A DNA stretch of 64,000 nt from Catellatospora methionotrophica (GTDB lineage Bacteria; Actinomycetota; Actinomycetes; Mycobacteriales; Micromonosporaceae): the NCBI RefSeq assembly GCF_011297335.1, contig NZ_JAAOTJ010000009.1:62001-126000 (forward strand). Direction: 5' to 3'. The notes below the pieces were generated by a model. It was not told the DNA's origin and ran no database searches. It saw nothing but the letters and a program-made list of their open reading frames with translations. Made by a program: the position numbers and the translations under genes. Below, piece by piece: positions 2,104-62,945 of this stretch. Each line of letters begins with the position of its first letter. Position 1 is the stretch's first letter.

Positions 2104-2817
2104 ATGAAACCGGAGAAGGGCGAGCAGCGCCGCCTGCTCGTGGTCGACGACGAGCCGACGATCGTGTCGCTGCTGTCGGCCAGCCTGCGATTCGTCGGCT
2201 TCGAGGTGCGCACCGCCGCCACCGGGGCGCAGGCGCTCGCCGTGGCCGCCGAGTTCAAGCCCGAACTGCTGGTGCTCGACGTGATGCTGCCCGACTGCGA
2301 CGGCTTCGAAGTGGTCCGCCGCCTGCGGGCCGGTGGCGCGCACGTGCCGGTGCTGTTCCTGACCGCCCGTGACGGCGTTCAGGACAAGATCACCGGGTTG
2401 ACGGTGGGCGGCGACGACTACGTCACCAAGCCGTTCAGCCTGGAGGAGGTCGTCGCCCGGATCCGCGCCGTGCTGCGCCGCACGTACACCGGCGCGGGCC
2501 CGCCCGCCGACGACACCACGCTGCGCTTCGCCGACCTGGAGCTGGACGAGGAGACCCACGACGTACGCCGGGCCGGAAAGCTCGTGCGGCTCAGCCCGAC
2601 CGAGTTCAAGCTGCTGCACTACCTGCTGGTCAACGCCGACCGGGTGGTCAGCAAGGCGCAGATCCTCGACCACGTCTGGCGGTACGACTTCGGCGGCGAC
2701 GCCCGCATCGTCGAGTCCTACATCTCGCTGCTGCGCCGCAAGGTCGACACGGTCGACCCGCCGCTGATCCACACCCTGCGCGGGTTCGGCTACTCGCTGC
2801 GGCTGCCGCGCTCGTGA
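2104..2817 (+). CDS. OmpR/PhoB-family response regulator
   Basis: DNA-binding response regulator of 237 aa. The receiver domain spans about residues 10-125, with acidic pair Asp15/Asp16, phospho-acceptor Asp59 (LLVLDVMLPD), Thr87 and Lys109 (DDYVTKPF). A winged-helix effector domain follows from about residue 135 to the end, with the typical LSPTEFKLLHYLL and RGFGYSLR motifs. The ATG at 2104 is preferred over upstream in-frame starts because a GGGAG (2093-2097) is 6 nt away and the receiver fold begins right after it. Its stop overlaps the GTG of the kinase gene in a GTGA, so the two are translationally coupled. Closest type by appearance is the TcrA/MprA/PrrA group. Targets are unknown; the divergent exporter is the obvious candidate. 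Confidence 0.95.
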   Translation: MKPEKGEQRRLLVVDDEPTIVSLLSASLRFVGFEVRTAATGAQALAVAAEFKPELLVLDVMLPDCDGFEVVRRLRAGGAHVPVLFLTARDGVQDKITGLTVGGDDYVTKPFSLEEVVARIRAVLRRTYTGAGPPADDTTLRFADLELDEETHDVRRAGKLVRLSPTEFKLLHYLLVNADRVVSKAQILDHVWRYDFGGDARIVESYISLLRRKVDTVDPPLIHTLRGFGYSLRLPRS

Positions 2818-4298
2818 GGCGGCTGCTGCGCGGGCCGAAGCGCTGGTCACTGCGCGCCCGGCTGCTGGCCGGAGTGCTCGCGCTGGTCTGCGCCGGGTTC
2901 GTCGTCGCCGACATGGCCAGCGTGTCGCTGCTGCGCATGTACATGATCGAGCAGATCGACGAGCAGCTGTCCGTCGCCATGCACGACCTGACCAAGCGCG
3001 ATCCGGACGAGTTCAGCCCCGCCGAGGTCGAGCAGTTCTCCAAGGAGCAGACCGAGGGCAAGACCTTCTTCGACGCGTACATCCTGGAGTTCCGCGACAA
3101 CGAGGGCCGGGTCCAGAAACGGTTCCCCGGCGACGCCGGTGAGGAGCGCCGCGGCTCGCCCGCCCTGCCGTCCCTCGACGTCGCCTCGGTGCGGCGGCTG
3201 GCCGACAAGCCGTTCTTCGTCCCCAACGCGGTCTCCTACCACCGGCACCCCGGCTACCAGGTGCTGGTGGGGGAGCGGGCCGACGGACAGGGCAGCGTCG
3301 TCATCGCGTACGACCTCACCGGTGTCGCCAAGACCATGGCCCGCCTCGGCGCGATCGAGATCGCGGTGACGCTCGCCGTGCTCGGCCTGGCCACCGCACT
3401 CGGAGTATGGGTCATCCGGATGGGCCTGCGGCCGCTGACCGAGGTCGAGCAGACCGCCGAGGAGATCATCGCGGGCGGCGACCTGTCCCGCCGGGTGCCC
3501 GAGCAGGTCGGGCCGCGCACCGAGATGGGCCGCCTGTCGCGCACCCTCAACACGATGCTGGCCCAGATCGAAGGCTCCTTCGCCGAGCGCACCGAATCCG
3601 AGACGCGGCTGCGCCGCTTCGTCGCCGACGCCTCGCACGAGCTGCGTACCCCGCTCGCGGGCATCCGTGGCCTGGCCGAACTGCACCGCCAGGGCGTGGT
3701 CACCGACCCGGCCGAGGTGTCCGCGCTGCTCGCCCGGATCGAGACCGAAGCCACCCGGATGGGGCTGCTCGTCGAGGACCTGCTGATGCTCGCCCGGCTC
3801 GACGAGCAGCGGCCGCTGCGTAGCGAACCCGTCGACCTGGTGCCCATCGCCGCCGACGCCATCGAGTCCGCGCAGCTGCGCGAGCTGGACCGGCCGCTGC
3901 GGCTGGAACTGCTCGACGGCGATCCGCCGGTGGTGCTCGGCGACGAGGACCGGCTCCGGCAGGTCGTCACCAACCTGCTCGGCAACGCGCTCACGCACAC
4001 CCCGGCGGGCACGCCGGTGACGGTGCGGGTCGGCGTGGAGAGCGACCGGGCCGTGCTGCAGGTCATCGACAGCGGCCCCGGCCTGTCACCCGAGCACGCC
4101 GAGCGGGTCTTCGAACGCTTCTACCGCGCCGACCCGGCGCGCGCCCGCGACCACGAGCGTTCGCCCGCCGCCGGGTCCGGCCTGGGCCTGTCCATCGTGG
4201 CCGCCCTGATCGCGGCGCACGGCGGCGAGATCTGTCACCGCCCGACCCCGGGCGGCGGCGCGACCTTCCGGATCGCGCTGCCGGTCTGGCCCGCCTGA
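2814..4298 (+). CDS. Sensor histidine kinase (HAMP-HisKA-HATPase)
   Basis: Membrane sensor kinase of 494 aa, partner of the preceding regulator. A first membrane helix at about 15-37 is followed by an extracytoplasmic sensor of about 140 residues. A second helix (about 182-202) leads into a HAMP linker (203-256). The HisKA H-box FVADASHELRTPLAG has phospho-acceptor His275. The ATPase domain shows an N-box (NLLGNALTHTP), a G1 box (DSGPGLS), an F-box (FERFYRADPARA) and a G2 box (GSGLGLSIVAALI). The GTG start at 2814 overlaps the regulator stop (GTGA). The signal sensed cannot be deduced from the ectodomain. Confidence 0.95.
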   Translation: MRRLLRGPKRWSLRARLLAGVLALVCAGFVVADMASVSLLRMYMIEQIDEQLSVAMHDLTKRDPDEFSPAEVEQFSKEQTEGKTFFDAYILEFRDNEGRVQKRFPGDAGEERRGSPALPSLDVASVRRLADKPFFVPNAVSYHRHPGYQVLVGERADGQGSVVIAYDLTGVAKTMARLGAIEIAVTLAVLGLATALGVWVIRMGLRPLTEVEQTAEEIIAGGDLSRRVPEQVGPRTEMGRLSRTLNTMLAQIEGSFAERTESETRLRRFVADASHELRTPLAGIRGLAELHRQGVVTDPAEVSALLARIETEATRMGLLVEDLLMLARLDEQRPLRSEPVDLVPIAADAIESAQLRELDRPLRLELLDGDPPVVLGDEDRLRQVVTNLLGNALTHTPAGTPVTVRVGVESDRAVLQVIDSGPGLSPEHAERVFERFYRADPARARDHERSPAAGSGLGLSIVAALIAAHGGEICHRPTPGGGATFRIALPVWPA

Positions 4299-4402
4299 TT
4301 CGCGCTGCCCCGGCCGGGCCGGCGGGGCGGGCCGCCGGAGGCCGGGGGGTCGACTGCCGGTGGCCGCCAGCCCGGCCTCGCGCCTCGCCGCGCTGTTGGC
4401 GA

Positions 4403-4450
4403 AGGAAGGGCACCTTCCTAACGCCATGCGTGGAGGAAGGTGCCCTTCCT
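4403..4450. repeat. Inverted repeat with 17-bp perfect arms (GGAAGGGC type)
   Basis: The arms are AGGAAGGGCACCTTCCT (4403-4419) and its exact complement AGGAAGGTGCCCTTCCT (4434-4450), separated by 14 nt. Each arm is itself nearly palindromic and each is followed by AACG. A related AAGGGCGCCTTC hairpin occurs at 58158-58196. It lies 105 bp after the kinase stop and may terminate that operon, but has no U-tract. Confidence 0.6.
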
Positions 4451-4476
4451 AACGGTCGCCGTTGGACGGACCGGGG

Positions 4477-4543
4477 GATGATCGCTGTTTCAGGTCAAAA
4501 CCTGTGGTGGGACCTCACTTTTTGACCTGAAACAGCGATCATC
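4477..4543. repeat. Long hairpin element, family 1, copy 1 (24-bp perfect arms)
   Basis: The left arm (4477-4500) begins GATGATCGCTGTTTCAGG and is perfectly complementary to 4520-4543, leaving a 19-nt loop containing GGTGGGACC. Homologous elements occur at 21393-21453 (inverted orientation) and 37572-37638. A flanking GGGGG/CCCCC extends the pairing. It could act as a terminator or be a mobile palindromic repeat. Confidence 0.7.
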
Positions 4544-4687: not shown

Positions 4688-4728
4688 CGGTTATTTCAGA
4701 GCTGCCTTTCGCCCCCAGGAGGGTGATC

Positions 4729-7335
4729 ATGCAACGCAAACCGCTCCTCAACCTGTTCGTCGCCACCGCGACGGCGCTGGTCGGGACCGCTGTGGCCGTC
4801 GCGGTCGCGGGCACCGCCAACAGTGCCGCCGTCGACCACAACGCCTGCCGCCCCGACGGCATGTACCAGACGCCCGGCGTGGCCGTCCCGTACTGCGACG
4901 TCTACGACACCAACGGCCGCGAGGCGATGGGGGCGGGCCACCCGCGCCGCATCATCGGCTACTTCACCAACTGGCGCACCGGCAAGAACGGCGCCCCGGC
5001 GTACCTGGCCAACCAGATCCCGTGGCAGAAGATCACGCACATCAACTACGCGTTCGCGCACGTGGACGGCGCCAACAAGATCTCGATCGGCAACCCGGCC
5101 GAGGCCAACAACGCCTCCACGAACATGACCTGGCCCGGCGTGGCCGGCGCGGAGATGGACCCGGCGTTCCCGTACACCGGGCACTTCAATCTGCTCAACA
5201 AGTTCAAGAAGCAGTACCCGGACGTCAAGACGCTGGTCAGCGTCGGCGGCTGGGCCGAGACCGGCGCGTACTTCGACGGCAGCGGCGCGCGGATCGACTC
5301 CGGCGGCTTCTACCGGATGACGACCAACGCCGACGGCTCGGTCAACACCGGCGGCATCAACGCCTTCGCCGACTCCGTGGTGACGTTCCTGCGCACGTAC
5401 GGCTTCGACGGCGTGGACATCGACTACGAGTACCCGACGTCCAACAAGGACGCGGGCCACCCGCTCGACTTCGCGCAGTCCAACGCGCGGCGGGCCGGGC
5501 TGAACGCCTCGTACCAGGTGCTGATGAAGGCGCTGCGGGAGAAGCTGGACACCGCCGCCGCCTCCGACGGCAGGTACTACATGGTCACCGTCGCGGCCCC
5601 GGCGTCCGGCTGGCTGCTGCGCGGCATGGAGTCGTTCCAGGCCACGCAGTACCTGGACTACATCAACATCATGTCGTACGACCTGCACGGCGCCTGGAAC
5701 CAGTACGTCGGCCCGAACGCGGCCCTGTACGACGACGGCCAGGACAACGAGCTGATCGCGGGCGGCGTCTACAACGCCTACGCGGGCATCGGTTCGCTGA
5801 ACACCGACTGGGCCTACCACTACTTCCGCGGGGCGGCGCAGAGCGGGCGCATCAACATCGGCGTGCCGTACTACACCCGCGGCCACAAGGACGTCACCGG
5901 CGGCACCAACGGCCTCTGGGGCACTGCGGCGAAGACCGCGAACTGCCCGATCGGCACCCAGAGCCCCTGCGGCAACGGCGCGATCGGCATCGACAACCTG
6001 TGGCACGACAACGACCCCGCGGGCAACGAGGAACCGGCCGGGTCCAACCCGATGTGGCACGCCAAGAACCTGGAGAACGGCATCGCCGGCTCCTACCGGG
6101 CGGCGTACGGCCTGACCCCCGCGACCGACCCGGCCGACACCCTGACCGGCACGTACGTGCGCAACTACTCCTCGACGCTGGTCGCGCCGTGGCTGTGGAA
6201 CGCGCAGAAGAAGGTCTTCCTGTCCACCGAGGACGAGCAGTCCATCGGGGCCAAGGCCGACTACGTGGTGAACCGGGGCATCGGCGGCATCATGATCTGG
6301 GAGCTGGCCGGCGACTACGCCTTCGACGCCGCGGCCGGTGAGTACCGGATGGGCAACACGCTCACCAACACCATCGCCGCGAAGTTCGCGTCCGCCTCGC
6401 CGTACGGCGCGAGCCGGTCCAACACGGCGCTGCCCACCCAGACCATCAACGTCGACGTGCAGCTCGGCGGATTCGCCCTGGGTGACTCGAACTACCCGAT
6501 CAACCCGAAGCTGAAGCTGGTCAACAACACGGCCACGACCATCCCCGGTGGGGCGGTGCTGGACTTCGACTACGGCACCTCCGCCCCGGGCAACATGAGC
6601 CAGCAGTCCGGCTGGACGATGGCGGTCACCCCGGGCCACACCGGCAACAACGTCGGCGGCCTCAAGGGCGACTTCCACCACGTCAAGCTGACCCTGCCGA
6701 GCTGGCAGACGGTGGCTCCGGGCGCGTCGATCGAGCTGACGCTCAACTACGTGCTGCCGATCGCCTCGCCGTCGAACTACACGCTGACCTTCGGCGGGCA
6801 GACGTACAACCTGGCGGTCAACCGCAGCCGGGGCGGGGTGGCCCCGACGGCCTCGCCGAGCACCCCGGTGTCGCCGAGCGCGTCGGCGTCGGCGTCGCCG
6901 AGCACCCCGCCCGGCACCTGCACCGACCCGGTGTGGAGCCCGACGCAGGTGTACACCGGCGGCAACCGGGTGTCGTACAACGGCCGGGCGTACCGCGCCC
7001 AGTGGTGGACCTCGGGCGAGACCCCGGGTGCCGCGTCGGTGTGGGTCGACCTCGGCCCGTGCTCGGGCGGCAGTGCCTCGCCGTCGGCCCCGCCGTCGCC
7101 CAGCGTGTCGCCGTCGTCGTCGCCGCGGCCCTCGCCGAGCGTGTCGCCCAGCGCCTCGCCGTCGCCGAGCCCGTCGACCTCGCCCGGGGCCTACCCGGCG
7201 TGGGCGCCGAACACCGCTTACGCGGCGGGCGCACGGGTCACCTACGGCGGCCGCTCGTACCAGTGCCGCCAGGCGCACACCTCCATCACCGGCTGGGAGC
7301 CGCCGAACGTCGGCGCGCTCTGGCTGGCCCTGTAA
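4729..7335 (+). CDS. Secreted GH18 chitinase with two chitin-binding modules
   Basis: Secreted endo/exo-acting chitinase of 868 aa that hydrolyses beta-1,4-GlcNAc chains. A signal peptide spans about residues 1-34. The GH18 barrel (about 75-545) shows SVGGW (171-175) and DGVDIDYE (227-234), with Asp230, Asp232 and the proton donor Glu234. A beta-sandwich domain (about 570-700) follows. Then come two CBM5/12-like modules (about 731-778 and 822-868), each led by W.P/A-Y-G-G aromatic motifs and separated by Ser/Pro-rich linkers. ATG 4729 is chosen over the in-frame GTG at 4723 because AGGAGG (4717-4722) is 6 nt before it. It is monocistronic, with hairpins upstream and a promoter carrying a CRP-like site. 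Confidence 0.95.
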   Translation: MQRKPLLNLFVATATALVGTAVAVAVAGTANSAAVDHNACRPDGMYQTPGVAVPYCDVYDTNGREAMGAGHPRRIIGYFTNWRTGKNGAPAYLANQIPWQKITHINYAFAHVDGANKISIGNPAEANNASTNMTWPGVAGAEMDPAFPYTGHFNLLNKFKKQYPDVKTLVSVGGWAETGAYFDGSGARIDSGGFYRMTTNADGSVNTGGINAFADSVVTFLRTYGFDGVDIDYEYPTSNKDAGHPLDFAQSNARRAGLNASYQVLMKALREKLDTAAASDGRYYMVTVAAPASGWLLRGMESFQATQYLDYINIMSYDLHGAWNQYVGPNAALYDDGQDNELIAGGVYNAYAGIGSLNTDWAYHYFRGAAQSGRINIGVPYYTRGHKDVTGGTNGLWGTAAKTANCPIGTQSPCGNGAIGIDNLWHDNDPAGNEEPAGSNPMWHAKNLENGIAGSYRAAYGLTPATDPADTLTGTYVRNYSSTLVAPWLWNAQKKVFLSTEDEQSIGAKADYVVNRGIGGIMIWELAGDYAFDAAAGEYRMGNTLTNTIAAKFASASPYGASRSNTALPTQTINVDVQLGGFALGDSNYPINPKLKLVNNTATTIPGGAVLDFDYGTSAPGNMSQQSGWTMAVTPGHTGNNVGGLKGDFHHVKLTLPSWQTVAPGASIELTLNYVLPIASPSNYTLTFGGQTYNLAVNRSRGGVAPTASPSTPVSPSASASASPSTPPGTCTDPVWSPTQVYTGGNRVSYNGRAYRAQWWTSGETPGAASVWVDLGPCSGGSASPSAPPSPSVSPSSSPRPSPSVSPSASPSPSPSTSPGAYPAWAPNTAYAAGARVTYGGRSYQCRQAHTSITGWEPPNVGALWLAL

Positions 7336-7468: not shown

Positions 7469-8284
7469 GTGGGGACTACCGCGTTCGTGCTCGGCGGCGG
7501 CGGCGTGCTCGGCGCCGTCGAGGTCGGCATGCTGCGCGCGCTGTTCCGCGCGGGCATCCGGCCCGATCTGGTGGTCGGCCTGTCCATCGGCGCGATCAAC
7601 GCCGCGCTGGTCGCCGCCGACCCTGAACCCGAGGTCACCGACAAGCTGGTCCGGCTGTGGGCCACCCCCGAGATCAGCGAGGTGTACGGCGACTCGGTGC
7701 CGCGCCAGCTGCGCCGCCTGGCGACCCGCGCCCACCTGCACTCGCCCGCCCCGCTGCAGCGGGTGCTGGAGCGCTCGATGCGGGCCGGGGTCACCTTCGA
7801 GGACATGCGTGTGCCGCTGCACCTGTGCGCGGCGAACATCGAGCGTGCCGAGGCGCACTGGTTCAGCACCGGCCGGGTCGTGGACGCGGTGCTGGCCTCT
7901 GCCGCCCTGCCGGGCGTGCTGCCCCCGGTGGAGATCGGCGGCGAGCACTACCTCGACGGCAACCTGGTGGCGTACCCGATAAGTCATGCTGTCGAGCTGG
8001 GCGCGGACGAGGTCTTCATGCTCCAGGTCGGCCGGCTGGAGCGGCCGCTGCAGCCGCCGCAGCGGCCGTGGGAGGCGACCAACATCGCCATGGAGATCGC
8101 CCGCCGGGTCCGCTTCACCCGCGAGCTGGCCGCCATCCCCGAGGGCGTACGCGTACACGTCCTGCCCGGCGGCGCGGGCGCCGACGAGAGCCCCTGGGCC
8201 TACCGCGACGTCGCCGCCGTCGGCCGCCGCGTCAGCGAGGCCTACGCCGCCTCCCGCGACTACCTCACCGCCGTCGGCCACTGA
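7469..8284 (+). CDS. Patatin-like phospholipase / acyl hydrolase
   Basis: Cytoplasmic patatin-fold serine hydrolase of 271 aa, probably cleaving acyl esters of phospholipids or other lipids. It has the glycine-rich oxyanion loop LGGGGVLGA (8-16), the nucleophile elbow GLSIGAIN with Ser39, and the catalytic Asp in YLDGN (Asp163) forming the Ser-Asp dyad. The length is normal for short bacterial patatins. The GTG at 7469 is the only start that places the Gly loop at the usual distance from the N-terminus. There is no clear Shine-Dalgarno, and a weak -10-like CATGAT lies 6 nt upstream, so the transcript may be leaderless. No signal peptide or membrane segment is seen. Substrate is unknown. Confidence 0.9.
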   Translation: MGTTAFVLGGGGVLGAVEVGMLRALFRAGIRPDLVVGLSIGAINAALVAADPEPEVTDKLVRLWATPEISEVYGDSVPRQLRRLATRAHLHSPAPLQRVLERSMRAGVTFEDMRVPLHLCAANIERAEAHWFSTGRVVDAVLASAALPGVLPPVEIGGEHYLDGNLVAYPISHAVELGADEVFMLQVGRLERPLQPPQRPWEATNIAMEIARRVRFTRELAAIPEGVRVHVLPGGAGADESPWAYRDVAAVGRRVSEAYAASRDYLTAVGH

Positions 8285-8370
8285 CCCCACCCCGGCCACC
8301 CCTCCACGCCCGCCCTCGCCCCGCCGCCCGCCCCCGCCCCCAGGCCCCCGCCCCGCCCCCTGCCGCAAAT

Positions 8371-8419
8371 CTTAAAGAGTCGCGGTCAAAAAGGACCCCT
8401 GAGGCCGCGACTCTTTAAG
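8371..8419. terminator. Hairpin with 15-bp perfect arms between convergent genes
   Basis: CTTAAAGAGTCGCGG (8371-8385) pairs exactly with 8405-8419 across a 19-nt loop. It lies between the convergent patatin and HdeD-like genes, so it probably terminates both. It is not homologous to the other two hairpin families in the window. Confidence 0.65.
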
Positions 8420-8515
8420 AGTTGCGCCTGGTGGAGGTGGGCCGGGCCGGGCTGGGTCGGGCCCGGCGAGGCGGGGTCGGGCGGGGTCGGGCTGGGTGAG
8501 GGTGGGTGGCGTGGG

Positions 8516-9118
8516 TCAGGCGACGCCGGGGACGGAGTTCTGGGTGGCGCGTTTGGCGGCGCGGCCGGAGGTGAAGCCGAGGACGAGCTGGATGATGCCG
8601 AGGGCGATGAGCCAGAAGCCGGTGATCCAGACGAGCACGGTCAGGGTGATGCCGGGCCAGAAGAACAGGACCAGGCCGGCGGCGACGCTGAGCAGGCCCA
8701 TCAGCACGGTGCCGATCTTCGGCCAGGTGCCGTGCGTACGCGCGAAGCCGGTCACCACCTCGGCCACCCCGCCGACGATCCAGACCAGGCCCAGCACCAC
8801 GGCCAGCACCTTGATCGAGTCGACGAGGTGCCGCAGGCAGATGATGCCCACGATGATGTAGAGCAGCCCCATCACGGCGATCAGGGCGCGATGGCCGCCG
8901 CTGACGCCCTTGGCTGTCAGGCCCTCGACGACGCGGAAGATCCCCACGACGACGAGCCATACGCCGATCAGCGCCGCGATCAGCACGAGGGTCTTCTCGG
9001 GCCAGAAGGTGAGCGCGAGACCGGCCGCGATCGAGATCAGCCCACCGATGATCGACATGCGCTTGAACGAGCGCAGCGCGGTGGCTTCGAGTGCGGCGTC
9101 TCCGTACGGATCCATCAT
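8516..9118 (-). CDS. HdeD-family (DUF308) membrane protein
   Basis: Integral membrane protein of 200 aa with six evenly spaced hydrophobic segments arranged as a repeated helix-pair unit. Examples are IIGGLISIAAGLALTFWPE and VLIALIGVW-type stretches ending in a W-P-G/E turn, as typical of HdeD/DUF308. E. coli HdeD is linked to acid resistance, but the role in actinobacteria is not established. The first of two adjacent ATGs (9118) is chosen because TATCTT lies exactly 6 nt before it and no ribosome binding site is seen. A second member of the family is at 41437-42225. Confidence 0.85.
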   Translation of the reverse strand: MMDPYGDAALEATALRSFKRMSIIGGLISIAAGLALTFWPEKTLVLIAALIGVWLVVVGIFRVVEGLTAKGVSGGHRALIAVMGLLYIIVGIICLRHLVDSIKVLAVVLGLVWIVGGVAEVVTGFARTHGTWPKIGTVLMGLLSVAAGLVLFFWPGITLTVLVWITGFWLIALGIIQLVLGFTSGRAAKRATQNSVPGVA

Positions 9119-16450: not shown

Positions 16451-16492
16451 CCCGAGCGGCACTGGGCTCGGCTACCACCCACCCCCACTGAC

Positions 16493-16553
16493 AGACGCTG
16501 GCCTATCTGGATGAGTTCGATCTTCGAAAACTCATCCAGATAGGCCAGCGTCT
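16493..16553. repeat. Long hairpin element, family 2, copy 1 (25-bp perfect arms)
   Basis: The left arm 16493-16517 begins AGACGCTGGCCTATCTGG and is perfectly complementary to 16529-16553, with an 11-nt loop around TTCGATCTTCGAA. It lies between the convergent FHA and rocD genes. Clearly related elements lie at 19660-19726 and, decayed, at 47342-47392. A terminator function is likely; the sequence identity between copies is not explained by that alone. Confidence 0.7.
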
Positions 16554-16639
16554 ATGTGAAGCGGGGCGGTGCAGCCGCCGGCTTCACCGGCAGCGGGTGG
16601 GGCGGGGTGGTGCAGCCGCGGGGTGGGTGGGCGGGCCGG

Positions 16640-19650: not shown

Positions 19651-19659
19651 CCCGTCCGT

Positions 19660-19726
19660 CATAGACGGTGGCCTATCCCATCGAATTTTTGTAGATCGAA
19701 CTCGATGAGATAGGCCACCGTTTATG
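19660..19726. repeat. Long hairpin element, family 2, copy 2
   Basis: The left arm 19660-19684 (CATAGACGGTGGCCTATC...) pairs with 19702-19726 with two mismatches over 25 bp; the loop is 17 nt. Its reverse complement aligns along its whole length with the element at 16493-16553, including a shared GAGTTCGATCT core. It follows the SDR stop by 9 nt. Confidence 0.7.
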
Positions 19727-19745
19727 AAAAGTTACTTGGCAGTAT

Positions 19746-19820: not shown

Positions 19821-21386
19821 GTGAGGAGAACCCTGTCCCTCCTGACGGTGGTCGTGCTGGCGCTCGTCACCTGGCCCGTCCCTGCCCAGGCCGCCGCCCC
19901 GACCACCGGCTTCCGCTTCGTGAACGTCACCGTCCCCGACGGGACCGTGCTCAAGGCGAACATCATCGAGCCGACCAGCCCCGGACGGCACCCGGCCGTC
20001 GTCTTCCCGGCCAGCTGGTCCCTGAACGACCTGGAGTACGTCGCCCAGGCCAACGCGCTGGCCCAGGGCGGCTACACCGTCCTGTCGTACACCCCGCGCG
20101 GCTGGTGGGCCTCCGGCGGTGAGATCGACACCGCGGGCCCGAAGGACATCGCCGACGCCTCCCGCATGATCGACTGGCTCGTCGCGAATACCACCGCCGA
20201 CCCGTCCCGCATCGGCATGGCGGGCGTCTCCTACGGGGCCGGGATCAGCCTGATCACCTCCGGCCACGACAGCCGGGTCCGCGCCGTGGCGGCCCTGTCC
20301 GGCTGGAGCGACCTGGTCGCCTCGCTGTACGGCGGGGACACCCGGCGGCTGCAGTCCTCGGCGCTGCTGGTCGGCACGGCGGCGCTGCTCGGCGACACCA
20401 GCGCCGAGTTCGACGCGGTCATCGGCGACTTCTACGCCAACCGGAACATCGCGGGCGTCAAGGCGTTCGCCCGGCTCCGCTCGGCGGGCACGTACCTCGC
20501 CGGGATCAACGCCAACCGCCCGGCGGTGCTGCTGGCCAACGGGTACGGCGACACGGTCTTCCCGCCGAACCAGCTCGTCGACTTCTACGGCGCGCTGGCG
20601 GGCCCGAAGCGGCTGGAGTTCGCGCCCGGCGACCACGCCATCCCCGAGCTGACCGGCCTGATCGGCCTGGACAACCACGTGTGGACCTCGGTGCGGCGCT
20701 GGTTCGACCGGCACCTGTCCGGCATCGCCAACGGGATCGACAGTGAGCCGCCGGTGGTGCTGCGCTCGCTGACCGGCGGGCCGGTGGAGGCGTACCCGGA
20801 CTGGGCCGCGACCGCCACCGCCACGAAGCGCTACGGCCTGGGCGAGGTGAACTGGCTGACCGGCACTGGACGGCTCGGTGGCGCGGCGACCAGTGGCTGG
20901 TCGCGGCGGACCTGGTTCAACGACGACACGGTCGCCGCGGGCGGCCTGGTGCTGCTGTCCAACGGGCTGCAGGCGCTGACCGGCATCCCTCCGACGATGT
21001 GGCTGCCCGCCGTCGACCGGGGCAACGCCGGGGTCTGGCTGGGCGACGAGGCCTCCAGTGCGGTACGCATCCGCGGCAGCGCGACCGTGCACGCCCGGTT
21101 CACCCCGACCGAGCGCAGCGGCACGCTCGTGGCCTACCTCTACGACGTGGACTGGGCCGGCACCGCGAAGCTGATCACCCACGCGCCGGTGTCGTGGCTG
21201 AACGGCACCGCCGACACCGCCCGCACGGTCGACGTCGCGCTGCCCGCGACCAGCTGGGACCTGCCCGCCGGGCACCGGCTCGCGCTGGTCGTCGACGGCC
21301 ACGACGGCCTCTACCTGGACGAGAACGGCTGGCTGGGCTCGGTCTCGTTCGCCGGTCAGTCGTGGGTGGACGTTCCGGTTCGCTGA
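19821..21386 (+). CDS. Secreted S15/CocE-type alpha/beta-hydrolase
   Basis: Exported serine hydrolase of 521 aa. A signal peptide (about 1-26, ending AQAAA) is followed by an alpha/beta-hydrolase domain of the X-Pro dipeptidyl-peptidase/CocE family. The nucleophile elbow is GVSYGAG with Ser137; the acid is probably the Asp in NGYGDTVFPPNQ and the base the His in FAPGDHAIPEL. The C-terminal 200 residues form a jelly-roll typical of PepX_C (VHARFTPTERSGTLVAYLYDVD). Family members cleave X-Pro peptides or acyl esters; the specificity is not predictable. The GTG at 19821 follows a TGAGG at 7-11 nt. The promoter carries a good CRP-like site, suggesting carbon or cAMP control. Confidence 0.87.
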   Translation: MRRTLSLLTVVVLALVTWPVPAQAAAPTTGFRFVNVTVPDGTVLKANIIEPTSPGRHPAVVFPASWSLNDLEYVAQANALAQGGYTVLSYTPRGWWASGGEIDTAGPKDIADASRMIDWLVANTTADPSRIGMAGVSYGAGISLITSGHDSRVRAVAALSGWSDLVASLYGGDTRRLQSSALLVGTAALLGDTSAEFDAVIGDFYANRNIAGVKAFARLRSAGTYLAGINANRPAVLLANGYGDTVFPPNQLVDFYGALAGPKRLEFAPGDHAIPELTGLIGLDNHVWTSVRRWFDRHLSGIANGIDSEPPVVLRSLTGGPVEAYPDWAATATATKRYGLGEVNWLTGTGRLGGAATSGWSRRTWFNDDTVAAGGLVLLSNGLQALTGIPPTMWLPAVDRGNAGVWLGDEASSAVRIRGSATVHARFTPTERSGTLVAYLYDVDWAGTAKLITHAPVSWLNGTADTARTVDVALPATSWDLPAGHRLALVVDGHDGLYLDENGWLGSVSFAGQSWVDVPVR

Positions 21387-21392
21387 GATGTA

Positions 21393-21453
21393 GATCGCTG
21401 TTTGCGGTCATGAACTGCGGTCCCACCGCAGGTCATGACCGCAAACGCTGATC
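21393..21453. repeat. Long hairpin element, family 1, copy 2 (inverted)
   Basis: A perfect 14-bp core, GTTTGCGGTCATGA (21400-21413) against 21433-21446, extends outward to GATC on both sides with mismatches. The loop holds CGGTCCCACCG. Its reverse complement aligns with 4477-4543, sharing GGTGGGACC, TGACC and AAACAGCGATC. It lies between convergent genes. Confidence 0.65.
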
Positions 21454-21484
21454 TTGCCCAGTGTCCGGGCGACGGAGCGCCGGT

Positions 21485-21898
21485 TCAGTCGGCGGTGCTG
21501 CCGCGCGGGGGCACCACCAGGGCGTAGATGACCAGGATGCAGAGCGCGATGTTGATCAGCGACCAGAACGGGTACACCGGCAGGTAGAGCATCTGCAGCA
21601 GGGCGGTCGCCCCGGCCAGGCCGATGCCCGCGCCGCGCGCCCACTCCTTGCCCGACCAGATACCCGCGCCGACGGCGATCAGCACCGCACCGAGCAGCAC
21701 ATGCAGCCAACCCCACGTATGCAGGTTGAAGATGTACAACTCGCCCTGGGTCGACGTGGCGTACGCGGCATACCGGTCGTTGGCGATCGCGAAGATGCCC
21801 TCCACCACGTTGAACACCCCCAGTAGCAGAATGAGCAGGCCGGCGAAGGACAGCCAGCCCGAGCCGATGCGCTCGGTCGCTTTCGCCACGGTCGACAT
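21485..21898 (-). CDS. DUF7144-type small membrane protein
   Basis: Integral membrane protein of 137 aa with four hydrophobic helices (about 15-35, 60-80, 88-106 and 110-130). It starts SGWLSFAGLLILLLGVFNVVEGI and has a central LHTWGWLHVLLGAVLIAVG motif, the pattern of a common actinobacterial family of unknown function distantly like HdeD repeats. ATG 21898 is preferred over a longer frame, since AAGGTGGG lies upstream and the preceding sequence is atypical. It follows the YibE/F gene after 85 bp on the same strand and may be cotranscribed. Confidence 0.8.
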   Translation of the reverse strand: MSTVAKATERIGSGWLSFAGLLILLLGVFNVVEGIFAIANDRYAAYATSTQGELYIFNLHTWGWLHVLLGAVLIAVGAGIWSGKEWARGAGIGLAGATALLQMLYLPVYPFWSLINIALCILVIYALVVPPRGSTAD

Positions 21899-21983
21899 AG
21901 CACCCACCTTCGTGCGAAACGGACGAAGCCCCTTCACGTTATCGTCGAATACCTGACCGATCGGGGCGAACGCCGGAAACACC

Positions 21984-23171
21984 TCAGGAGGCTCCGGGCG
22001 CGGGGTCGCCGGCGGCGTGGCGGTGCGAGCGGGCGATGGCCCAGGCGGCCAGCGCGGTCGTGATCGGAACGGCGGCGATGAGCCCGATGGTGCCCACGAC
22101 ACCGCGCACGATCTCGGCGGCCAGCACCTGCGTGGACAGCACGTCCCGGGTGCCGGTGCCCGCGGTGACCAGGAGCAGCATCAGCGGGAGCGACGCGCCC
22201 GCGTACGCCAGGATGATGGTGTTGACCACCGACGCGACGTGGGACCGGCCCACCTTGATCGCCGACCGGTAGAGCTGCCGGGCGTTCAGCGCGGGGTCGG
22301 CCAGGGACAGCTCGCCGACGATGGCGAGCTGGGTGATGGCGACGTCGTCGAGCACGCCGAGCGTGCCGATGATGATCCCGGCCAGCAGCAGGCCGCGCAG
22401 GTCCACCCCGGCCAGCACGTTGGCCAGGATCGCCGCCTCGTCGCTGCCGGAGCCGGTCAGATGCAGCAGGTTCGTGGTGAGCAGGCCGAGCAGGCCGGTC
22501 AGCACCAGCGCGGCCAGCGTGCCGAGCAGCGCCATGGACGTGCCCACGCTGACGCCGTGCGTCAGGTAGATCACCGCGAACATGATGGCGGCCGACCCGA
22601 CGATCGCCACCCACAGCGGCGGCTCGCCGCGCACGATCGCGGGCAGGATGAAGCCCAGCAGCACCGCGAAGCTGACCACCAGCCCGACCAGGCTGGCCAC
22701 GCCGCGCCAGCGGGCGAACGCGATCACCGCGGCGGCGAACAGCGCGACCAGCGCCAGCAGCCAGCCCCACCGGTCGTGGTCGACCACCGCGTAGCGCTGC
22801 CCGCCCTCGGCGTCGACCGAGCCGATCAGCACCACGTCGTCGCCGACGCCCACGACCGGGGCGCTCGGCCCGCTCGGCACCACCGCGTCCACGACGGTGT
22901 CGCCGATACGCACCTGCGCGGTCCCGCAGTCGCCGCCCGGCTGCGCCGGGACCTCGCGCGGGCAGGCCGGGGTCGCCGAGACGATCTCGCCGTGCAGCCG
23001 CTGCGCGGTGTCGGAGGCCTGCTGCGGGGACTGCCCGCGCGGCCACAGCACGACCAGCCCGACCAGGGTCGCCACGACCAGCGGCACGATGATCGCGGTG
23101 ACGATCCGCCGCAGCTCGGCCGGGGCAGGCGGCAGCGACTCGCCAGGCTCGTGACTGTGTCCGGCCCCCAT
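21984..23171 (-). CDS. YibE/F-family membrane protein
   Basis: Polytopic membrane protein of 395 aa. A first helix (about 24-44) is followed by an extracytoplasmic domain of about 80 residues with a Cys pair (ACPREVPAQPGGDCGTAQV). Seven or eight helices follow with the YibE/F signature region GVLDDVAITQLAIVGEL and HVASVVNTIILAYAGASLPLML. The biochemical role is unknown, although a transport function is often assumed. The ATG at 23171 lies 9 nt after the stop of the upstream gene and has no ribosome binding site. A TAGGTT ending 6 nt before it overlaps that stop, so it may have its own leaderless transcript. Confidence 0.9.
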   Translation of the reverse strand: MGAGHSHEPGESLPPAPAELRRIVTAIIVPLVVATLVGLVVLWPRGQSPQQASDTAQRLHGEIVSATPACPREVPAQPGGDCGTAQVRIGDTVVDAVVPSGPSAPVVGVGDDVVLIGSVDAEGGQRYAVVDHDRWGWLLALVALFAAAVIAFARWRGVASLVGLVVSFAVLLGFILPAIVRGEPPLWVAIVGSAAIMFAVIYLTHGVSVGTSMALLGTLAALVLTGLLGLLTTNLLHLTGSGSDEAAILANVLAGVDLRGLLLAGIIIGTLGVLDDVAITQLAIVGELSLADPALNARQLYRSAIKVGRSHVASVVNTIILAYAGASLPLMLLLVTAGTGTRDVLSTQVLAAEIVRGVVGTIGLIAAVPITTALAAWAIARSHRHAAGDPAPGAS

Positions 23172-34930: not shown

Positions 34931-37573
34931 GTGACGGATGCGGAGCGCAGGAGGCTGGCCGATGCGGACGCCGGGGCGGAGCCCTGGCGGATGTGGGGGC
35001 CGTACCTGTCCGAGCGGGCCTGGGGCACCGTGCGCGAGGACTACAGCGAACACGGCACGGCCTGGGAGTACTTCCCGCACGACCACGCCCGCTCGCGCGC
35101 GTTCCGGTGGAACGACGACGGGCTCGCCGGGATCTGCGACGAGCGGCAGACGTTCTGCTTCAGCCTCGGCCTGTGGAACGGCGCCGACCCGATCCTCAAG
35201 GAGCGCATCTTCGGCCTGACCGGCAACGAGGGCAACCACGGCGAGGACGCCAAGGAGTACTGGTGGTACACCGACTCCACGCCGACGCACTCGTGGATGT
35301 CGTGGCGCTACCACTACCCGCAGCGCGAGTTCCCGTACTCGGAGCTGGTCGCGGTCAACCGGCAGCTGGACCGCTCCGAACCGGAGTACGAGCTGGCCGA
35401 CACCGGGGTCTTCGCCGACGACCGCTACTGGGTCGTCACCGTCGACTACGCCAAGGCCTCGCCGACGGACATGTGCATGCTCGTCTCGGTCACCAACCGG
35501 GGCGCGGACCCGGCGACCCTGCACGTGCTGCCCACGCTCTGGTTCCGTAACACCTGGTCGTGGGGCCTGCCCGGCCGCGACGACAAGCCCGAGATCGTGG
35601 CGGACGGCAGCGAGCTGCGGGCCCAGCACCGCATCCTGGGCCGCCTGATGCTGCAGGGCGACGGAACCCCGGTAGCGCTGGCCTGCGACAACGAGACCAA
35701 CGCGGCGCGGCTCTGGGGCTACGAGGAGACGCCGGACTACCCGAAGGACGGCATCGCCGACCACGTGGTGCACGGCCTGCCGACGGTCAACCCGCAGGGC
35801 ACCGGCACCAAGGCCGCGCTGCACTACGTGCTGTGCGTGCCGCCGGGCGAGACTGCGCAGCTCAGGCTGCGGCTGAGCCAGATCGCCGCGCCGGGCGGCA
35901 AGGCCCGGCCCGTGCCCTCGCTCGGCGAGGACTTCGACCGGGTCATCGCCGCGCGCCGGGACGAGGCCGACCAGTACTTCGACTGGCTCGTGCCCACGGG
36001 CACCCCGCCCGCGCAGGCGCAGGTCGTGCGCGAGGCGGTCGCCGGGCTGATGTGGGGCAAGCAGTTCTACCACTACGACGTGGCGCGCTGGCTCGACGGC
36101 GACCCGGCTTCGCCCGCACCGCCGGAGGGCCGCCGGTTCGGGCGCAACAGCGCCTGGCGGCACATGACCAGCTTCGACGTCATCTCCATGCCGGACCCGT
36201 GGGAGTACCCCTGGTACGCCGCCTGGGACCTGGCCTTCCACTGCGTCGCGCTGGCCCGCGTGGACCCGCACTTCGCCAAGGAGCAGATCCTGCTCCTGCT
36301 GCGCGACTGGTACCTGCACCCCAACGGCCAGCTCCCCGCGTACGAGTGGGCGTTCGGCGACGTGAACCCGCCCGTGCACGCCTGGGCGGCGCTGCGGGTG
36401 TTCGAGATCGACGGCGGGCGCGACTACGCGTTCCTCGCCCGCGTCATGCACAAGCTGCTGCTCAACTTCACCTGGTGGGTCAACCGCAAGGACACCGGCG
36501 GCAACAACCTGTTCGAGGGCGGCTTCCTCGGCCTGGACAACGTCGGCCCGTTCGACCGGTCGGCGTCGCTGCCCGTGCCCGGCGTGCTGGAGCAGTCCGA
36601 CGGCACCGCCTGGATGGCGATGTACGCCCTCAACCTGCTGGAGATCTCCCTGGTCCTGGCCACCCACGACCGGGTCTGGACCGACATAGCGACCAAGTTC
36701 CTGGAACACTTCGCCTACATCGCCAACGCGGCCTCCCACCAGGGGCTCTGGGACGACGAGGACGGCTTCTTCTACGACCTGCTGCGGCGCACCGACGGCC
36801 GCGAGGTGCCGCTGAAGGTGCGCTCGGTGGTCGGACTGCTGCCGCTGTGCGCGACGACGACCCTCAGCTCCGTCACGCTGGTCCGACTGCCGGAGATCGC
36901 CGCCCGGCTGCGCTGGTTCCTGACCAACCGGCCCGAGTTCACCGAGGTGGTCGGGGCGCGCCGGATCTCCGACGGCGGGCAGCAGCAGCGCCTGCTGGCG
37001 GTGGTCGGCCCCGAGCAGCTGCGGCGCATCCTGAGCCGGATGCTGGACCCCGAGGAGTTCCTGTCCGACTACGGGCTGCGCACCCTGTCCCGGGCCCACC
37101 TCGACAAGCCGTACACGATCCGGCTCGGCGGGCACGACTACACCGTCGGGTACGAGCCCGCGGAGTCGAACAACGGGCTGTTCGGCGGCAACTCCAACTG
37201 GCGCGGCCCGATCTGGTTCCCGACGAACTACCTGCTCATCGAGGGCATCCGGCACTACGCCCGGTTCTTCCACGACGACCTGCTGGTCGAGTACCCGACC
37301 CGCTCCGGCCAGAAGATGACCCTCGACCATATCGCCGACGACCTCTCCGACCGCCTCATCAGCCTGTTCCTACCCGACAAGCACGGCAACCGCCCCTACC
37401 TGCCCGTCCACCCCCTGCTCGGCGACCACCCCGACTGGACCCAGCACCTGACCTTCCCCGAGTTCTTCCACGGCGACAACGGCCTCGGCCTCGGCGCCAC
37501 CCACCAATGCGGCTGGACCGCCCTGGTCCTAGACCTCATCCTCACCCGCAACCGCCCCACCCACACCCGGTGA
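34931..37573 (+). CDS. GH63-like / MGH1-type glycoside hydrolase
   Basis: Large cytoplasmic glucosidase-like protein of 880 aa. An N-terminal beta region (RAWGTVREDYSEHGTAWEYFPHDHARSRAF) is followed by an (alpha/alpha)6 barrel. The acids expected of the GH63/mannosylglycerate-hydrolase-type domain lie in YPWYAAWDLAFHCVALA, EWAFGDVNPPVHAWA, GGFLGLDNVGPFDRS and GGNSNWRGPIWFPTNYLLIEG. Substrates in the family range from glucosyl- or mannosylglycerate to oligosaccharides; next to glycogen genes it may process released malto-oligosaccharides. The GTG at 34931 overlaps the stop of a chance-length nine-codon frame (34905-34934), so coupling is possible. It ends inside a family 1 hairpin element. Confidence 0.88.
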   Translation: MTDAERRRLADADAGAEPWRMWGPYLSERAWGTVREDYSEHGTAWEYFPHDHARSRAFRWNDDGLAGICDERQTFCFSLGLWNGADPILKERIFGLTGNEGNHGEDAKEYWWYTDSTPTHSWMSWRYHYPQREFPYSELVAVNRQLDRSEPEYELADTGVFADDRYWVVTVDYAKASPTDMCMLVSVTNRGADPATLHVLPTLWFRNTWSWGLPGRDDKPEIVADGSELRAQHRILGRLMLQGDGTPVALACDNETNAARLWGYEETPDYPKDGIADHVVHGLPTVNPQGTGTKAALHYVLCVPPGETAQLRLRLSQIAAPGGKARPVPSLGEDFDRVIAARRDEADQYFDWLVPTGTPPAQAQVVREAVAGLMWGKQFYHYDVARWLDGDPASPAPPEGRRFGRNSAWRHMTSFDVISMPDPWEYPWYAAWDLAFHCVALARVDPHFAKEQILLLLRDWYLHPNGQLPAYEWAFGDVNPPVHAWAALRVFEIDGGRDYAFLARVMHKLLLNFTWWVNRKDTGGNNLFEGGFLGLDNVGPFDRSASLPVPGVLEQSDGTAWMAMYALNLLEISLVLATHDRVWTDIATKFLEHFAYIANAASHQGLWDDEDGFFYDLLRRTDGREVPLKVRSVVGLLPLCATTTLSSVTLVRLPEIAARLRWFLTNRPEFTEVVGARRISDGGQQQRLLAVVGPEQLRRILSRMLDPEEFLSDYGLRTLSRAHLDKPYTIRLGGHDYTVGYEPAESNNGLFGGNSNWRGPIWFPTNYLLIEGIRHYARFFHDDLLVEYPTRSGQKMTLDHIADDLSDRLISLFLPDKHGNRPYLPVHPLLGDHPDWTQHLTFPEFFHGDNGLGLGATHQCGWTALVLDLILTRNRPTHTR

Positions 37574-37638
37574 TGATCACTGTTTGTGGACAAAAGCTTT
37601 GGTCAGGCCACACTTTCTGACCTCAACCGGCGATCATC
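37572..37638. repeat. Long hairpin element, family 1, copy 3 (degenerate)
   Basis: It begins GATGATCACTGTTTG at the stop codon of the GH63-like gene and ends GATCATC. The arms pair imperfectly, but the sequence aligns with 4477-4543 along its length (GATGATC.CTGTTT, GGT..GG, ACTTT.TGACCT). It lies between convergent genes. Confidence 0.55.
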
Positions 37639-37668: not shown

Positions 37669-38997
37669 TCAGGCGAAGCGGCGGGGTTGGCCGGTGGTCT
37701 CCAGGACGGACATCCAGAGGTCGCCGGCCGGGTCGACCTGGTGGCGTTTGCTGATGGCGAGGGCTATGGGGACGTGGACGAAGCGGCCGCGCCAGCGGCC
37801 GACGACCATCGCGGTGCGGCCGGCCATGGCGGCGTGCACGGCGGCGTGGGCCAGGCGGATGCAGTAGACGCTGTCGTACGGGTTGGCGGGCACGCTGCGG
37901 ATGGCGTAGCTCGGGTCGATGTACTTGAGGCTGGTCTCCATGCCGTGCTCGGCGAAGTCGTCGGCGATACGTCTGCGCAGGAAGAGGCCGATGTCCTTGA
38001 GTTTGCGGTTGCCGGACTGGTCGACCTGGCCGGGCTCGCCGGACTCCAGGTACTCCTGGCCCGCGCCCTCGGCGGCGACGACCACCGCGTGGCCGCGCTC
38101 GCGGACCCGCCGCCGCAGGTGGGACAGGAAGCCGTCCTCGCCGTCGAGCTGGAACGGCACCTCGGGGATGAGCACGTAGTCGGCGTCGTTGTTGGCCAGC
38201 GCCGCGTAGCAGGCGATGAAGCCGGAGTGGCGCCCCATGACCTGCACCAGGCCGACCCCGTTGGGCACCGCGCGGGCCTCGACGTGGGCGCTGCGCAGCG
38301 ACTCGGTCGCCTTGGAGAAGGCGGTCTGGAAGCCGAAACTCTGATCGATGTACGGGATGTCGTTGTCGATGGTCTTCGGCACGCCGATCACGGCGATCTT
38401 CAGGCCGCGCTCCTTGACCACGTCGGCGATGGTCAGCGCGCCGCGCATGGAGCCGTCGCCGCCGATGACGAACAGCACGTTGATGCTCATCGACTCCAGG
38501 CAGTCGACGATCTCGTACGGGTCCTGGCTGCCCCGCGACGTGCCCAGGATGGTGCCGCCGTACTCGTTGACGCCGCTGACCGCCTCGGCGTCGAGGTCGA
38601 TCGGCGGGTGGCCGTACTTGGCGATGAAGCCCTGGTAGCCGTTGCGGAAGCCGTAGATCTTGGTGACGCCGTAGTGCGAGGTCAGCTCCAGCACCAGGCC
38701 ACGGATGACGTCGTTGAGCCCGGGGCACAGGCCGCCGCAGGTGACGATGCCGACGCGGGTCTTGGACGGCTGGAAGAAGATCTTCCGGCGGGGGCCGCCG
38801 GGTTCGAAGCCGGGCAGCGCGTCGAGCTTCGCCTTGCGCGCGGCGATCATGTTGACGGTGTCGTCGAACAGCACCCGGTCGTTCTCGTCGACGTAGTGCT
38901 CGGTGCTCTCGGTCGAGGCCAGCAGGGGTGCCAGCGGCGATGCGATACGGCAGTCGCCGAGCGTGCGCACCGTCAGGTCAACGGACTCCGGAGCCAT
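37669..38997 (-). CDS. 6-phosphofructokinase (ATP-type, long form)
   Basis: PFKA-family kinase of 442 aa that phosphorylates fructose-6-phosphate to the 1,6-bisphosphate. An N-terminal extension of about 75 residues precedes the core. GGLCPGLNDVIRG binds nucleotide, GGDGSMRGA (179-187) keeps the Gly typical of ATP-dependent enzymes, and PKTIDND (207-213) has the Lys seen in the long/PPi-like clade. MGRHSGFIA binds substrate. This combination is found in group X ATP-PFKs. ATG 38997 is chosen over a longer start because GGAGG is 6 nt upstream. It sits beside the glycogen block and links it to glycolysis. Confidence 0.92.
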   Translation of the reverse strand: MAPESVDLTVRTLGDCRIASPLAPLLASTESTEHYVDENDRVLFDDTVNMIAARKAKLDALPGFEPGGPRRKIFFQPSKTRVGIVTCGGLCPGLNDVIRGLVLELTSHYGVTKIYGFRNGYQGFIAKYGHPPIDLDAEAVSGVNEYGGTILGTSRGSQDPYEIVDCLESMSINVLFVIGGDGSMRGALTIADVVKERGLKIAVIGVPKTIDNDIPYIDQSFGFQTAFSKATESLRSAHVEARAVPNGVGLVQVMGRHSGFIACYAALANNDADYVLIPEVPFQLDGEDGFLSHLRRRVRERGHAVVVAAEGAGQEYLESGEPGQVDQSGNRKLKDIGLFLRRRIADDFAEHGMETSLKYIDPSYAIRSVPANPYDSVYCIRLAHAAVHAAMAGRTAMVVGRWRGRFVHVPIALAISKRHQVDPAGDLWMSVLETTGQPRRFA

Positions 38998-39098
38998 GGC
39001 CGTCCTCCACATGTGGCCGCCGCGTGAGCGGCCGGTCGGGGCGAGGTTTCACCCGGGCCGCGGCTGCGCCGCCGCGTCCCGTCAGGGTGGATCATCGC

Positions 39099-52867: not shown

Positions 52868-52933
52868 CCCGCTGTTTCGGGGAAAGCGCAGCCTTCCGGA
52901 CGTGGATGGCTGCGGTTTCCCCGAACCAGCGGG
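52868..52933. terminator. Long hairpin between convergent genes (26-bp arms, 2 mismatches)
   Basis: CCCGCTGTTTCGGGGAAA... (52868-52893) pairs with 52908-52933, leaving a 14-nt loop. It starts 8 bp after the epimerase stop and touches the stop of the regulator gene on the other strand, so it probably terminates both. CGCTGTTTC recalls family 1, but the rest does not align. Confidence 0.65.
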
Positions 52934-61931: not shown

Positions 61932-62945
61932 TCAGAAGGAGCAGTTGACGAGGTGGCATTCGGGCGTCAGGTCGACGTCGAAGGTCGACTGGACGCCGTC
62001 GCGGATGTGGGCGGCGAACTTCAGGACGTCGGCGGTGGTGGCGCCGCCTCGGTTGGTCAGGGCGAGGGTGTGCCGGGTCGAGAGGGAGACGGTGCCGTTG
62101 CCCCAGTCGGATCCGTAGCCGGGACCGAAACCGGCGTGCTGGATGAGCCACGCGGCGTGCAGCTTGGTGCCCTTGGCGTCCGGCTGGCCGGGGCACTCGC
62201 GGGCCCGGTCGGGCACCTCGGCGAGCACCGGGTTGAGGAAGAACGACCCGACGCTCCACGTGTCGTGGTCGGCGGCGTCCAGCACCATGCCGCGCGCCCG
62301 GCGCTGCTCCAGCACCGCCTCGCGTACGTCGGCCGGGTCAGCCGTGCCGCCGACCTCGATCCCCAGCCGCTTCGCGACCGCCGGGAACGTCACCGGGGCG
62401 GACTGCCCGCCGCGGCGCAGCCGGTACGTCACGTCCAGCACGACCCAGCGGTCGCTGTGCTTGAACACCGACATCCGGTGAGTGCCGAACCCGCACCGCT
62501 CCGGCGACCAGACCTCGACCTCATCGGTCGTACGGTCGAACACGGTCACCGACTCCAGCACGTCCGACGTCACGGTGCCGTACGCGCCGACGTTCTGCAC
62601 CGGCGTGCCTCCCACCGAGCCGGGGATGCCCGACAGCGCCTCGACCCCGGACAGGCCCGCGGCCAGCACCGTACGCACCAGGTGATCCCACTCGACCCCG
62701 GCGGCGGCGGTGACCAGCTCGCCGTCGATGTCGAACTCGCCCGACGCCATCCGGACGACCGTGCCGTCCCAGCCGACGTCACCGACGACGAGGTTCGAAC
62801 CCCCGCCCAGCACCAGCAGCGGCTCGTCGGTGTCGCCCGCGTCGCGGAGCAGGTCGATCGCGTGCGGCGTGCTGCGGGCGACTTCCAGCCGCCCGATCGG
62901 GCCACCGACCCGCATCGTGGTCAGCTCAGCAAACGTCATGGTCAC
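61932..62945 (-). CDS. murB: UDP-N-acetylenolpyruvoylglucosamine reductase
   Basis: FAD-dependent MurB of 337 aa that makes UDP-MurNAc for peptidoglycan. The FAD-binding N-terminus has TTMRVGGPIGRLEVARS and LLVLGGGSNLVVGD. SGIPGSVGGTPVQNVGAYG binds the cofactor diphosphate, and YRLRRGGQSAPVTFP and VGSFFLNPVL carry the substrate and proton-donor Ser regions. Length fits the type I enzyme. The start is placed at GTG 62945 because TAGGCT ends 7 nt before it and no ribosome binding site exists; ATG 62939 is the alternative. It is not in the mur/dcw cluster. Confidence 0.95.
   Translation of the reverse strand: MTMTFAELTTMRVGGPIGRLEVARSTPHAIDLLRDAGDTDEPLLVLGGGSNLVVGDVGWDGTVVRMASGEFDIDGELVTAAAGVEWDHLVRTVLAAGLSGVEALSGIPGSVGGTPVQNVGAYGTVTSDVLESVTVFDRTTDEVEVWSPERCGFGTHRMSVFKHSDRWVVLDVTYRLRRGGQSAPVTFPAVAKRLGIEVGGTADPADVREAVLEQRRARGMVLDAADHDTWSVGSFFLNPVLAEVPDRARECPGQPDAKGTKLHAAWLIQHAGFGPGYGSDWGNGTVSLSTRHTLALTNRGGATTADVLKFAAHIRDGVQSTFDVDLTPECHLVNCSF

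Follow-up and report, generated by a model that had tools for sequence, protein, structure and literature searches.

A family of 61-bp palindromes at gene ends in Catellatospora, REP-like in its genomic context and probably under selection as RNA

Three palindromes of about 67 bp lie at the 3′ ends of genes in a 64,000-nucleotide stretch of Catellatospora methionotrophica DNA (NZ_JAAOTJ010000009.1, positions 62,001 to 126,000; the window), and it is asked here whether they belong to a repeat family, and whether such a family would be of mobile type, of the type of REP elements or a structured RNA, the three identities offered by the original prediction. The copies and their neighbours are as follows, with gene ends that are approximate because the genes were called by a simple codon-usage caller:

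2814..4298, plus strand: histidine kinase gene, 5′ of copy 1 (Pfam HisKA/HATPase_c)
4477..4543 (67 bp; 61-bp core 4480-4540), no strand assigned: copy 1, in a co-directional gap, about 180 bp past the histidine kinase gene
4723-7335, plus strand: next co-directional gene past copy 1 (gene call)
19821..21386, plus strand: X-Pro dipeptidyl-peptidase-like (S15) gene, ending directly 5′ of copy 2 (Pfam PF02129/PF08530, gene call)
21390..21456 (67 bp; 61-bp core 21393-21453), no strand assigned: copy 2, in a 98-bp convergent gap (21386/21485)
21485..22102, minus strand: DUF7144 gene, converging on copy 2 (Pfam PF23636)
34931..37573, plus strand: glycoside hydrolase (MGH1/GH63-like) gene, overlapping copy 3 at its stop (Pfam PF22422/PF03200)
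37572..37638 (67 bp; 61-bp core 37575-37635), no strand assigned: copy 3, in a 95-bp convergent gap (37573/37669)
37669..39012, minus strand: phosphofructokinase-family gene, converging on copy 3 (Pfam PF00365)

All three elements were found where the original prediction had placed them, each with a core of exactly 61 bp that begins and ends with GATC, and in copies 1 and 3 this core is flanked on either side by three more bases, G/C-A-(A/T), which account for the predicted length of about 67 bp. Copies 1 and 2 do have a common loop, both being centred on GGTGGGACC, and copy 2 gives its best profile match in the inverted orientation relative to copy 1; since the element nearly equals its own reverse complement, orientation is weakly defined. 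Each copy is on the 3′ side of a plus-strand gene, one in a co-directional gap and two in convergent gaps. The statement that a copy begins precisely at a stop codon comes very close: the stop, TGA at 37571-37573, coincides with the outermost bases of copy 3, whose GATC core starts two bases further on. As RNA, copies 1 and 2 were predicted to fold at −44.2 kcal/mol (z −10.6) and −44.8 kcal/mol (z −9.9), and copy 3, the most decayed of the three, with a partly decayed stem, at −21.6 kcal/mol (z −2.9). The phosphofructokinase of the window is 99% identical to a Catellatospora paridis protein, and this gene served to find sister species. Copy 1 has orthologues in G010 and G002, and its site in G004, like some other orthologous gaps, is without any such hairpin; copy 2 has orthologues in G010, G002 and G004, and G005 and G003 hold other hairpins at the site. 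Copy 3 is present in this species alone among those compared, with other hairpin families or nothing elsewhere. A palindrome of another family (AAGGAAGGGCACCTTC..., modal length 50 bp) lies just 5′ of copy 1 at 4402-4453, and G010 has a similar pair of families at this site.

The three copies belong to a large family. In the assembly that holds the window (8.39 Mb, 56 contigs), an 11-base arm with at most one mismatch occurs 444 times, far above the 6 matches of a reversed-pattern control, and a profile search of 722 kb of the genome's own sequence gave 32 copies at 36–76 bits and nothing at 10–36 bits. The genome total scales to about 260–370 copies, a rough estimate because part of the sampled DNA was picked for containing matches. 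A covariance model (R1), in whose capped counts one palindrome may score on both strands, found many copies in all 11 Catellatospora genomes. The proposed dispersed repeat family therefore stands, with a few hundred copies and genus-wide occurrence rather than few further copies. Within the Micromonosporaceae, matches were obtained in 7 of 44 genera, with a length of mostly 61 bp in genera g24 and g41 and mostly 53 bp in g39 (including Hamadaea); in a wider sample of the order with stricter filters, this genome and one other matched among 298. The g39 genomes G048, G087 and G100 hold a cousin family, mostly of 53 bp, with near-perfect stems (CTG-GATCAGGGTTCCGGGTCGAATCTTG-N4-...).

In 110 of the 114 distinct copies collected from this genome the core is exactly GATC-N53-GATC (61 bp), with a mean pairwise identity of 0.76. 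Next to the core, every one of these 110 copies has A or T on either side, and these two bases pair across the element at a frequency of 0.71 against 0.50 expected; the second base out is mostly A on the left and T on the right, and the third mostly G or C. The A/T-led three-base flanks on each side thus make a unit of about 67 bp, whose ends are symmetric in the 110 copies, mostly SAW-GATC and GATC-WTS. The outer stem comprises arm positions 1–21, in which pairs 12, 13 and 14 covary strongly (paired at 0.80, 0.69 and 0.97, against 0.54, 0.37 and 0.80 expected). Positions 22, 23, 25 and 26 pair at about chance level and 24 and 27–29 are conserved, the inner 8 positions of each arm being conserved in sequence without covariation, in the dyad pattern AA-SSTG-N-GGT-NNN-ACC-N-CASS-TT. 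The favoured letters differ between species; for example, position 14 is G in 87% of arms here and T in all G006 arms sampled. A fixed length together with species-specific variants fits a trans-acting recogniser, and the inner part is probably the site at which a protein binds or at which the copying machinery, itself not found, recognises the element.

Invariant ends, fixed length and inner dyad halves that fit one consensus, while their mutual pairing is no better than chance, are also what would be seen if the element were a site in DNA: an operator-like dyad bound by a dimer of a chromosomal protein, such as a nucleoid organiser or a topoisomerase partner (compare gyrase at E. coli REPs), with positive supercoils collecting at gene ends as the reason for its position there. 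The density of copies, which ranges from 2.3 to 8.2 per 100 kb between contigs of this genome, and the sparse stretch at about 4.9–6.2 Mb of the G006 chromosome also suit such a site. We consider this reading unlikely, because half-sites need no compensatory change, yet outer pairs 12–14 covary strongly. Few exact arm matches were seen in that G006 stretch and in the first 1.28 Mb of G000 contig C1, which points to uneven spread along the chromosome, perhaps with sparse occupancy near the terminus.

The copies are concentrated past the ends of genes. All 32 copies in the 722-kb sample are intergenic, 12 in convergent, 18 in co-directional and 2 in divergent gaps, against 57, 192 and 114 among background gaps of at least 60 bp (convergent enrichment p=0.006, divergent depletion p=0.002, Fisher), and the larger set of 114 has 2 copies inside called genes and 6 in divergent gaps. 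From the upstream stop to a co-directional copy the median distance is 53 bp, and from the copy to the next start 159 bp; the stop is the closer of the two in 40 of 51. High copy number, intergenic location and a preference for convergent and co-directional gaps are the context of REP elements. Past the 5S rRNA terminator of rrn operons (L039:1-300, L044, L038, L230) lie 61-bp elements: three operons of this genome have them, and in two of its operons the common sequence stops within about 1 base of the element; in G006, two elements follow in a row. Tandem doublets about 105 bp apart in G006 were considered as a REPIN-like unit and rejected, the three spacers compared differing in both sequence and length. 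Copies also lie past another U-tract terminator at two contig ends, and where a canonical terminator already exists the element is not the sole terminator.

If the element is made as RNA and its fold matters, changes in one arm should be matched in the other. Cells changed on both sides numbered 88 against 54 in shuffles (57 copies), a value that none of 500 shuffles reached and that also exceeded slid controls. Between orthologous copies, the outer 21 pairs gave 57 switches from one Watson–Crick pair to another, against 0–11 with slid partners, counts taken over sequence pairs so that a single change may count repeatedly; the inner part gave 3, against 0–4. At gap 145217, where all six species have the element, paired switches of T-A/C-G and G-C/T-A/C-G are seen. 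The matched changes suggest that the elements may function as hairpins in RNA, marking the ends of transcripts or protecting them. Correction of one arm by the other through template switching at replication is a known property of quasi-palindromes, and would yield compensatory changes at the DNA level without any selection on RNA. It is a very improbable source of the present pattern, because the inner positions were not homogenised, as shown both by their switch count and by the chance-level pairing at 22, 23, 25 and 26.

Moreover, template switching gives no bias by transcript strand, and such a bias was found. Read on the strand of the upstream gene in co-directional copies, the outer stem has G.U and A.C mismatches in a ratio of 102:58 (p=0.0006), made up of 67:40 in this genome and 35:18 in other species, where the counts include orthologous copies, which are not independent; the inner part is balanced at 47:40. 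Such a surplus of G.U along the transcript would be expected of a transcribed hairpin under selection, and indicates that selection probably acts on the RNA hairpin; for a protein site in DNA no such bias by transcript direction is predicted. Strand-biased C-to-T mutation could account for part of the surplus, since the outer ratio is not significantly different from the inner one (p=0.17).

The family might instead be a selfish non-autonomous repeat of MITE or REP type, whose hairpin is the recognition site of a putative transposase and whose 3′ location is what remains after purging from promoters and genes. In its favour are the many copies, orthologous gaps that differ in occupancy, the addition of copies beside intact terminators and the presence of several unrelated fixed-length families within one genome. 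The marks of transposition were sought: flanking duplications show no consistent excess at any offset or at any length of 2–9 bp in 110 copies; no transposase gene lies between the closely spaced copies examined, where FAD monooxygenase-like and pirin-like genes (named from sequence only) are found, host genes that oppose reading such pairs as an IS; and no autonomous element with the same termini was seen in the 722 kb scanned, single-arm partial matches there being no more frequent than chance. The Y1 transposase domain PF01797 was not found in G010, which is rich in the element, nor in G001, G007, G008 and G009, all carriers, some of these assemblies being drafts, and its copies in G000 are 150-aa open frames; a RAYT/Y1 transposase was therefore rejected as the mover, as it is not consistently present. 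Dead copies would not retain pairing after divergence, yet orthologous copies do, and we judge the selfish repeat an improbable account. Hence, among the identities originally proposed, a REP-like family with a signature at the RNA level fits best, and the MITE-like one is unsupported, with no target-site duplication, no transposase gene between the close copies examined and no autonomous element in the 722 kb scanned.

Comparison with up to six sister species in two regions showed how the family persists and changes. The element is common to many orthologous gaps there, and orthologous copies are on average more alike than non-orthologous copies across species (for example 0.82 against 0.75, G000–G010), which indicates vertical inheritance; occupancy of the gaps nevertheless varies. 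Of orthologous convergent gaps compared in at least three species, 21 of 23 vary in hairpin class, a coarse measure of turnover because the class ‘other’ includes anything without a recognised family. A different fixed-length hairpin family, or an ordinary terminator, is often what a sister species has at the orthologous gene end; gap 76310 holds family F there, gap 114325 family H and gap 21386 other hairpins. At gap 55758 of G006 a clean replacement of the terminator was considered and rejected, the old terminator being still present beside the added element. This gap, together with the copies that follow 5S genes, indicates that copies arise as additions as well as alternatives. Judging from these patterns in sequence, we consider it somewhat more probable than otherwise that the elements form a family of intergenic, REP-like palindromes, inherited vertically yet quickly gained and lost, whose members act as RNA.

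A possible mode of action is as follows. A polymerase leaving the upstream gene, or either of two convergent genes, would transcribe the element, and the RNA would fold into a hairpin that has a 3-base tip and up to 29 pairs. A canonical intrinsic terminator, with a U-tract after the stem, is not what is found: at least 5 T in the 8 bases past the element occur in 0 of 51 co-directional copies. A stable RNA hairpin shortly past the stop with maintained pairing, as in U-less terminators, is found. The hairpin might end transcription without a U-tract, like the I-shaped hairpins of mycobacteria, and/or block 3′ exonucleases; as the element nearly equals its own reverse complement, it could serve transcripts from either side. 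The best reading is therefore a new REP-like family that would provide a U-less, often bidirectional 3′-end RNA hairpin for termination or end protection. That terminators need neither fixed length nor conserved sequence counts against the role in termination.

U-less hairpins as mycobacterial terminators have been reviewed, and U-tract terminators reported scarce in mycobacteria (PMC12288462); the same paper also cites work titled as showing that the mycobacterial polymerase needs a U-tract. I-shaped terminators share with the present element the lack of a U-tract and a position near the stop (within 50 bp there, a median of 53 bp here), but they are a structural class and are not described as one sequence family of fixed length. 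Compensatory switches through G.U have been reported for terminators of Bacillus cereus (PMC5381666). REP elements of the GTAG and CGTC super-families (PMC3733652) are likewise species-specific dispersed palindromes, mostly in convergent and co-directional gaps and with complementary stem variants, and their G.T pairs were read as a sign of a role in RNA, as G.U pairs are here. They differ in being 20–40 bp long with a GTAG or CGTC tag at one end, whereas the present element is symmetric, of 61–67 bp, with GATC at both ends and without such a tag (110 copies). GTAG REPs are moreover tied to RAYT transposases, which are not consistently present here, and the groups given for these REPs are Proteobacteria, Cyanobacteria, Chloroflexi and the PVC group, Actinobacteria not being mentioned (PMC3733652). 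Bacterial MITEs (ERIC, NEMIS and YPAL; background in PMC3733652) are also dispersed, palindromic and often adjoin coding sequences, but have transposon-type terminal repeats and usually target duplications, of which the 61-bp family has none that we found. Stem-loop sequence families surveyed in 40 genomes, mostly medically relevant, are intergenic repeats with a common hairpin thought to act as RNA; the parts of that survey available to us do not describe the present family, a fixed length with orthologous compensation, or exchange of families at the same gene ends (PMC2267715). Rfam gave nothing above gathering score (best, a miRNA precursor at 26.8 against 50 bits), a literature search with the arm sequences returned unrelated matches, and our searches gave no account of the present family in actinobacteria. 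In the way that it would work the element resembles both REPs and U-less terminators, and it belongs to neither named family.

It is not the only palindrome family at gene ends of this genome, in which at least six more were recognised, with modal lengths of 59, 67, 47, 62, 58 and 50 bp and, for some, small counts of 3 to 20 paired copies. In the window, the convergent gap 8284-8516 has a palindrome of family B (CAACTCTTAAAGAGTCGCGGC, modal length 59 bp), with the same family in 4 of 5 sister species; family C palindromes (CATAGACGCTGGCCTAT..., 67 bp) lie at 16469-16577 and 19659-19727, and other copies of this family have a conserved, asymmetric loop (GTTTGATCT..CGAATAA). A family F palindrome (CTGTTTCGGGGAAA...) at 52868-52933 has a GTTTCGGG stretch in common with the 61-bp family, of which it may be a distant cousin. 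A wider and more tentative view, which we hold as possible but doubtful, is that at least seven unrelated palindrome families of fixed length (47–67 bp) serve the gene ends of this genus and replace or join one another at orthologous ends, as a mobile class of 3′-end hairpins, each with its own putative trans-acting copier or recogniser, of which the 61-bp GATC family would be the most abundant.

Dispersed palindromes are well known in Proteobacteria, and the 61-bp family is apparently an undescribed actinobacterial case. It is a tractable one: orthologous compensation and a strand-specific G.U excess allow selection at the RNA level to be told apart from spread alone, and the same gene ends are occupied by several hairpin families in different species. 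Such a family would aid tests of how transcription ends in high-GC bacteria.
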